Of a stretch of 42,078 nucleotides of DNA, positions 25,956 to 28,583 are shown piece by piece. The position numbers and the translations under genes are program-made. Positions within the stretch are counted from its first letter, which is position 1. Every line of letters begins with the position of its first letter. Under the pieces are notes generated by a model, which had not been told where the DNA came from, did no database searches, and saw only the letters and a list, made by a program, of their open reading frames with translations. Source of the stretch: Thermodesulfovibrionia bacterium (GTDB lineage: Bacteria > Nitrospirota > Thermodesulfovibrionia > UBA6902); assembly GCA_945788685.1 (NCBI GenBank), contig CALZMZ010000013.1, positions 1 to 42,078 on the forward strand, written 5' to 3'.

Positions 25956-26456
25956 TTATCCAATTTCTTTTTGATATTTAATCATGTTATATCCTGAATC
26001 GATCTGGTTATGAACTCTTCTTTTCTCCTGAAATCCGCACGCAAGGTACATTCGCTGAGCTGGAAGGAAAAAAGGATTTTCACTAGTCGAAGCTAATGCT
26101 GTTTTAATCCCCTCGGATTGAAATATTCTTAAAATTTCACAAATCTGTTGCTTGCCGAAACCATTTCTCCGGAATCTTGGCAATATGCAGTTATGTCCAA
26201 TAATTCCATATTCCAATCCCTGTCTCGGATCAAAAGATCCAAATCCGACTAACTTATCGTCTGACCAGCTTAAGAACACACAACTTCCAACTGTCTCCGG
26301 ATGTTCAAATGCATCTCTATCAAACTGATGCCATTTATGTACTTCCGGTTCCCAATATAAAGGATCGGAATTTATGAGTTCTTCATAGCTATCCCATAAT
26401 AAAGAAGCCAGTATTCCTGGTTCATTCTTATTAATCGATGTGAACTGGATCTTCAT
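25956..26456 (-). CDS. GNAT family N-acetyltransferase
   Basis: GIIGHNCILPRFRRNGFGKQQICEILRIFQSEGIKTALASTSENPFFLPAQRMYLACGFQEKRR. Confidence 0.85.
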   Translation of the reverse strand: MKIQFTSINKNEPGILASLLWDSYEELINSDPLYWEPEVHKWHQFDRDAFEHPETVGSCVFLSWSDDKLVGFGSFDPRQGLEYGIIGHNCILPRFRRNGFGKQQICEILRIFQSEGIKTALASTSENPFFLPAQRMYLACGFQEKRRVHNQIDSGYNMIKYQKEIG

Positions 26457-26553
26457 TATTATGAATAGAATTGATTATCGAACTCATTGCAATGAGAACC
26501 AAACAGCTAACTCCTGCCGTTATTCAAGACTGATATTGAGATATTATTCTACT

Positions 26554-27053
26554 CTATGACAATGATTTTGCCATATAATATTCGTCAACATAAGAACCAT
26601 TAACGAAAAGTGCGTGTTCCTTTTTGCCCTCAATCTCAAATCCCATTTTCCTGAATAATGCAAGCGCTTTATTATTATTGGTCATCGTAGATAGTTCTAA
26701 ACGGTAAATTTTATTTTGATAAGCCCATTTTTCTATTTCCTTAAATAACAGGGTGTCGATACCCTGCCCTGTATAAGATTTAATTATACCTATTACCAAA
26801 TTGACATTGTGTCTATTTCTTTTAAATATTCCCCCGAATGCCTTAAGATACCCAATCAATTTCCCATTATCTTCTGCTACATATATTATTCCATTGTCGG
26901 TTGATAAAAGATATTTTATTTCATGTTTTTGATCGCTGACAGATGTCACTCTTTCATCAGGTTCCACCAATACAAACCGTGTTTCTTTCTCTATTTTTTA
27001 CGAAGCTCTAAAAACTTCTTAGCGTCACTCTTTCTTATTTGTCTTATTATCAT
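26554..27053 (-). pseudogene. GNAT family N-acetyltransferase with an apparent 1-nt frameshift in an A6 run
   Basis: The tracked ORF (26554-26970) lacks its N-terminus. The adjacent frame gives MIIRQIRKSDAKKFLELRKK, joining [I]EKETRFVLVEPDERV if T6 at 26994-26999 were T7. Confidence 0.75.
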
Positions 27054-27063
27054 TTATCAATAA

Positions 27064-27810
27064 CTATTTAATACGTTTTGCAATGATAAAGTCTTGATCT
27101 GGTATGCCGATTCTGTCCCAGTCGCTGTAATGGATTGGTTCTATTATATTGAATCCGCAGTTATCGTAAATCTTTCTAACAAATGTCTCGCTCTGTGCGA
27201 TACCTTCTTCAGGATTTTCCGGATCAAACGTATAACATTCACCAATACTATGAGTAAAGTTGAAACTGGCTGTTCCTTTTCTGACTCCTTCTGCCGTTTT
27301 ACTGTTTATTAAATAATAACTGGCATAGAATGTCCCGGTAGGCTTGATTACCCGGGATAATTCGTTTATATAGTACTTCATTTCGTGATCTACCATATGA
27401 GTAAATAGAGAATGTGCATACACAATATCAAACATGTTCTCAGAATATGGCAGTGTCATCTCTTTCAGTTGGTATTTTCCATTTGGATTATACAATTTCT
27501 TTTTCACATCGACATGAGCAAAATGAAAATCAGGAAATGAAACTGAGATATTTTTTTTACACCAGTCGATATGTTCGGGACAAATATCAAATCCATAGTA
27601 TTTACCAGCATCACTTAAAAAATGCAGTAACAGTAGCGCGACCCTTCCGCATCCACAACCCGCATCTAATATGGTTTGTGAAGGGGAGATATTTGCATAT
27701 TCTTTAAGTATATTGAAAGTCTGCTGTCCACTTTTGGTAAATACGTCCGCGTCTTTAAATGGTCCGACCCATGTTCGGATACTTTCAGGAGGAATGAGAT
27801 TGTTGCTCAT
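27064..27810 (-). CDS. class I SAM-dependent methyltransferase
   Basis: ILDAGCGCGRVALLLLHFL (motif I), MFDIVYAHSLFTHM, ELSRVIKPTGTFYASYYL. Confidence 0.92.
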   Translation of the reverse strand: MSNNLIPPESIRTWVGPFKDADVFTKSGQQTFNILKEYANISPSQTILDAGCGCGRVALLLLHFLSDAGKYYGFDICPEHIDWCKKNISVSFPDFHFAHVDVKKKLYNPNGKYQLKEMTLPYSENMFDIVYAHSLFTHMVDHEMKYYINELSRVIKPTGTFYASYYLINSKTAEGVRKGTASFNFTHSIGECYTFDPENPEEGIAQSETFVRKIYDNCGFNIIEPIHYSDWDRIGIPDQDFIIAKRIK

Positions 27811-27936
27811 CTTGTTCTTTATTTATTAGTTGAAGTCAGCGGCTGGCCAAAAAGTTGGCCGCGTCAGCCCTGCCGCGCTTCTTCCAGTCCGCAGAACTGT
27901 TTTGTTATGCCTTTATTTATTTGAACTTGCTCTCAC

Positions 27937-28212
27937 CTACCGAAATTGAGCTCTTATTCTGCCTGCTGACACACCCATGGCTATTGCCTGCACTGCACCA
28001 ATTTCTTCATCGGTAAGTCCATTTTCTTTGGCAACTCCAAAGAAATGTTACATTCATGGGTAGCATCCAGCGATGAACGATGCTGCCAATTGGATCATAA
28101 CAGTTGTTTTCTGATCTAATATTTCATTATTAGCTGTTGACTCAAAGAATTCTTCGTATTTTTGTTTCTGCTTCTCCGGTAACAATGGTTCTCCTTTCAT
28201 TTGTTCTGGCAT
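27937..28212 (-). pseudogene. AhpD-like/carboxymuconolactone decarboxylase-family gene with in-frame TGA (codon 53) and TAA (codon 55); candidate (decayed?) selenoprotein
   Basis: Not in the ORF track. MPEQMKGEPLLPEKQKQKYEEFFESTANNEILDQKTTVMIQLAASFIAGCYP(TGA)M(TAA)HFFGVAKENGLTDEEIGAVQAIAMGVSAGRIRAQFR*. Confidence 0.75.
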
Positions 28213-28583
28213 AACGTATATCATTATAAATTTGTCATAAAGGGGTAATGGAATGAAAAAACCATCACTATCAGAGTTAAATTAAATTCTACGTTCAAAG
28301 ATCCTAACACAGGACAAGTATATCTCAACTTTATAATTAGAACAAGAATAAAGTGTACAAAAAAATGTACAATTCACTAGAACTCTGTATTGATTTACAA
28401 TGGAAATATTCAGTGATGAAGACCCGCCTTGGATTGAGGATTATTAGATAATAGTTACGATTCCAGTATCACTCAAAAACTGATGCTATATATGAGTCAA
28501 TCAGCACTTCAATTTTACGAGGGATTAGACGATTTGAGGTTATTTTAAAGTGATGAGCAACGTAACCTGAAAGAGACGCTGGA

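Follow-up and report, generated by a model that had tools for sequence, protein, structure and literature searches.

A probable recently inactivated AhpD/CMD-domain selenoprotein gene in a Thermodesulfovibrionia genome

The window analysed here, a 42,078 nt stretch of contig CALZMZ010000013.1 from a Thermodesulfovibrionia bacterium (GCA_945788685.1), contains on its minus strand (27937-28185) a single CMD/AhpD-domain reading frame that is interrupted by an in-frame TGA (28054-28056) and then by a TAA (28048-28050). We put the probability at about two in three that this is a horizontally acquired, recently inactivated AhpD/CMD selenoprotein gene in which the TAA is a true nonsense change. An AhpD-like selenoprotein had been proposed at this locus from the letters of the sequence, and that reading is now backed by selenocysteine (Sec) machinery genes in the same metagenome-assembled genome (MAG) and by homologues carrying either TGA or Cys at the equivalent codon. 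As CxxU selenoproteins of the CMD/AhpD kind go back in the literature to 2005, this is one more member, and it seems to be decaying. What it offers is a case of recent loss, in a gene that routine annotation would probably overlook.

The intact gene would have encoded a small stand-alone protein of the AhpD/CMD fold, a predicted thiol (seleno-)oxidoreductase. In its ancestor, Sec would have formed the second half of a CxPU redox pair, inserted by way of SelA, SelB and SelD and a SECIS hairpin immediately behind the UGA. The copy in the window would then have arrived by horizontal transfer and been inactivated recently, when the codon two places beyond the Sec codon became a stop; a further early stop lies close to the C-terminal end. 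Ribosomes would now halt at the UGA or, should Sec be inserted there, at the UAA, leaving a truncated peptide that lacks the C-terminal half of the domain, and the gene is probably not expressed.

Reading frame, stops and relatives

The original prediction gave the gene an extent of 27937-28212; its TGA, its TAA and its quoted translation all match the window sequence exactly and its frame stands, whereas its start probably does not. The closest homologue, from a Desulfobacterales MAG (L018), begins ATG-TTA-CCG where the window reads TTG-TTA-CCG, and a Shine-Dalgarno-like AAAGGAG (28191-28197, minus strand) lies 5 nt before this TTG (28183-28185), both of which favour it over the ATG at 28212, rejected here as the start. 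The read-through product matches the CMD family of Pfam (PF02627) over residues 19-80, a span that includes the TGA, with E=1.7e-10 and 41.1 bits against a cut-off of 23.

At the 3' end the frame closes with a TAG (27937-27939) in the context CGG-TAG-GTG-AGA, to which CGT-CAG-GTG-CGG corresponds in L018. Because L018 has CAG there and runs on, with nine more residues in all, the TAG looks premature by codon comparison and probably replaces a Gln as a second premature stop; the Val-Arg of the lost tail is still legible behind it. Apart from the predicted Sec codon, then, the frame is closed twice, at the TAA and at the early TAG. The damage is limited to the stops, the rest of the frame being intact, and we regard the gene as probably a broken member of the CxxU CMD/AhpD-like selenoproteins.

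L018 is 78% identical to the window gene and carries TGA at the equivalent codon (GCYP-TGA-M-A-HFFGVAKEN). So do three other genomes from the class to which the window belongs, which read CQP-TGA-TEYCLAVARQQ (L039), CQP-TGA-TEYCLAVEEQS (L040) and CTP-TGA-MEVYFGGAEDL (L046), and in all four the frame is open on both sides of the TGA. Cys occupies this codon in L024, L041 and L043; the redox motif is CLPC in a Photobacterium protein and CRPC in L041 and L043, which are more distant CMD proteins (as is L044; L022 and L043 are one gene found twice). Since TGA homologues and Cys homologues align at the same place, the TGA is assigned to the second redox-Cys position (C-Y-P-U), where it had originally been placed as the second Cys of a CxxC motif; the alignment across the TGA proposed as a check on that placement includes four TGA homologues as well as Cys homologues. 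Viral contigs, phages and plasmids yielded as relatives nothing but one Cys homologue, in Photobacterium.

The position of the TAA is filled differently in the relatives, by Ala (GCG) in L018, by Glu in L039, L040 and L046, and by Asn in Photobacterium. In all four relatives with the TGA this codon is a sense codon, which indicates that the TAA is a lesion peculiar to the window copy and not a family trait.

Two of these relatives have features of their own. In L039 (genome G259), the TGA-bearing AhpD frame runs stop-free into an upstream Cys-rich ORF (SALDAGKHH...HGCRETKCPFF, upstream of 1495), and the two are possibly a fusion. In L040 (genome G328, about 1350-1900), the SECIS region folds poorly and an extra in-frame TGA occurs upstream of the likely start; this homologue may be decaying too, or may be the end of a longer selenoprotein.

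Among known systems, the window gene most resembles the CMD-like or AhpD-like 2 selenoproteins (pfam02627, CxxU) described from marine metagenomes (PMC1088965, PMC2398784, PMC13188914), with which it shares the CMD fold, a CxxU motif with predicted Sec as the second Cys and a hairpin immediately behind the UGA; what sets it apart is its pair of stops, a TAA at the second codon past the UGA and the early TAG. Its best NCBIfam matches, over residues 6-81, are the selenoproteins MduS (NF045649, E=1.5e-16) and ArsM_AhpD_UU (NF041537, E=4.6e-16); in these the AhpD domain is C-terminal and fused to a methyltransferase, whereas here the domain stands alone and scores far below their full-length cut-offs (380 and 510 bits). 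The GSU3128 family (seleno)protein (NF041047) is itself a small stand-alone CxxU/CxxC AhpD homologue, matched with E=1.7e-9, and membership in that family was rejected at 37.7 bits against a curated cut-off of 110.

Selection, SECIS-like hairpin and Sec machinery

Codon comparison of the window gene with L018 divides at the TGA. Before it there are 15 identical, 12 synonymous and 16 nonsynonymous codons; behind it there are 16 identical (the TGA itself included), 20 synonymous and 2 nonsynonymous, with dN of 0.07 and saturated dS. Judged from this excess of synonymous over nonsynonymous changes (20 versus 2), the stretch behind the TGA was under strong purifying selection and was translated until very recently, which also dates the TAA to recent times, be it mutation or error. 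Of all the arguments for a genuine Sec gene, we give this pattern the most weight.

The hairpin noted originally is also present: RNA from 28047 down to 28020 (minus strand) folds as an 11-bp stem with one bulge, and the G of its apical loop lies 19 nt after the TGA. The 60-nt segment that begins at the TGA has a minimum free energy of -15.2 kcal/mol (z=-3.3), equalled by 1 of 200 dinucleotide shuffles. Against shuffles that preserve the protein the result is borderline, as 97 of 2000 fold as well. Hairpins occur at the equivalent place in three of the four TGA homologues (L018, L039 and L046, that of L040 being weak) and in the MAG's own selD, and a G at position 22 from the UGA, in the apical loop, is invariant across the five aligned genes. 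Covariation gave no significant signal in this alignment of only five sequences, one of which (L039) is shifted by one base in register. Taken alone, the hairpin is modest evidence for Sec.

The MAG (2.6 Mb, 192 contigs, 84% complete, 4.5% contamination) encodes most of the machinery for which the original prediction had suggested a search. It contains selA (616.7 bits); selB directly behind it (325.7 bits), running off the end of contig C59 (L035/L002) after 541 codons; and a selD (322 bits) that itself contains an in-frame TGA, in the motif GGUAAK, followed by a hairpin. The part of the expectation that failed concerns selC: neither the MAG nor any of three genomes from its genus, one of them 95% complete on a single contig, yielded a tRNA-Sec gene above the Rfam cut-off, and L035, the locus that holds selAB, has no tRNA-Sec match. 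In the MAG, the top hits to RF01852 turned out to be ordinary tRNA-Ser, -Leu, -Trp, -Arg and -His genes and were rejected as selC. In a Nitrospirae lineage selC overlaps the end of selB (PMC8124441), and if the genes are arranged likewise here, the missing selC may lie a short way past the end of the contig. As for the genomes of the same genus, the Rfam model may miss their selC; if it does not, they would be without Sec decoding.

Alternative readings of the stops

The main competitor to recent inactivation is that the TAA is an error of sequencing, assembly or strain mixture, and that the gene is intact and still encodes a working AhpD-like selenoprotein. It would agree with there being just one defective codon in the conserved core, with strong purifying selection on the 36 codons behind the TAA into the recent past, and with the source of the sequence, a fragmented MAG with 4.5% contamination. 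Consensus base errors are, however, rare per site, and this one would have to share a short gene with a second stop, the TAG that stands for the CAG of L018. Because two stops sit in one short gene, we favour decay and consider such an error less likely, though it is the alternative to be taken most seriously. Recent decay, a base-call error and something stranger had all been entertained originally for the TAA; the Ala and Glu codons of the relatives uphold its status as a lesion, and the second premature stop favours decay over error.

The remaining readings are far less probable. One is that the frame around the TGA is open by chance, or is the pseudogene of an ordinary Cys gene that never used Sec. 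The failure to find selC in the MAG would fit it, but it is made very improbable by four other genomes that keep the TGA at the equivalent codon in an otherwise uninterrupted frame, and by the sel genes that the MAG does contain. Least credible of all is that the UAA is itself decoded, by readthrough or by a tRNA with a UUA anticodon, so that the gene with its double stop is functional. UAA-reading variants of tRNA-Sec have been described in metagenomes, and strong conservation continues behind both stops. Yet the position is not that of a redox residue, being Ala, Glu or Asn in relatives, the tRNAs inspected include no suppressor, and the adjacent genes read normally under table 11.

Probable horizontal acquisition and a possible integron cassette

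None of three other genomes of the genus examined has the gene, and few of the family and class carry one. The neighbours of the L018 gene differ from those of the window gene, and this difference, together with the patchy occurrence, suggests that the gene was acquired horizontally.

The flanks of the gene are laid out like those of an integron gene cassette with its attC. On the minus strand, a GTTATGC at 28209-28215, a possible 5' cassette boundary (R' box), is the exact reverse complement of a GCATAAC (27904-27910) that would serve as the R'' box opening a roughly 80 nt attC-like element at 27829-27910, in which GCGG (27889-27892) and CCGC (27839-27842) precede a degenerate 3' R' box. This element folds as DNA with z=-2.6, and once the GTTATGC is joined to it, 7 bp form between the outer boxes. 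The GTTATGC stands to the GCATAAC as the 5' TTRRRY of a cassette does to the R'' box of its own attC, being complementary to it, although the RYYYAAC consensus is departed from at one base. Among 594 NNNNAAC sites on the gene's strand, just 2, including this GCATAAC, have their complement 280-330 nt upstream. Matches of the attC-like site to plasmids were rejected as short chance matches.

Integron gene cassettes (attC sites; PMC2727003) are thus alike in the short gene, the GTTATGC at its 5' edge and the complementary GCATAAC that opens a folded element at its 3' side. The window element differs from them in its degenerate 3' R' box (CTAATAA stands in place of a canonical GTTRRRY, so it is not a complete attC), in having no neighbouring attC and in having no adjacent intI. 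A DNA search of the MAG found no second similar attC, beside its intI fragments or elsewhere, and no array. Those fragments of integron-integrase genes are on two other contigs, C137 (204.7 bits, cut by the contig end) and C8 (142.3 bits, interrupted), against a cut-off of 265. The interruption in C8 (L034:3296-4655, minus strand) is an ORF of the 23S_rRNA_IVP type (PF05635, E=3.8e-36, L034:3664-4023) that splits the integrase-like gene and has short AGCTTATAGC/AAAGCTTAAAGC-like repeats on either side; a stretch nearby reads N.

We hold it to be a tentative idea, with the odds somewhat against it, that a UGA-Sec gene with its SECIS, enclosed by attC boundaries, moved between lineages as an integron gene cassette. 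A gene carried in this way would work only in Sec-decoding hosts and would decay easily and, were the idea true, Sec-dependent genes would be spreading through integrons. Among the matches listed by a full-text literature search, no paper on selenoprotein genes spreading via integrons was found.

Directly downstream of the gene, on the minus strand at 25956-27810, lies a low-GC block (37%) that encodes two GNAT acetyltransferases and a SAM methyltransferase; it is possibly acquired DNA, or a set of cassettes that lost their attC sites.
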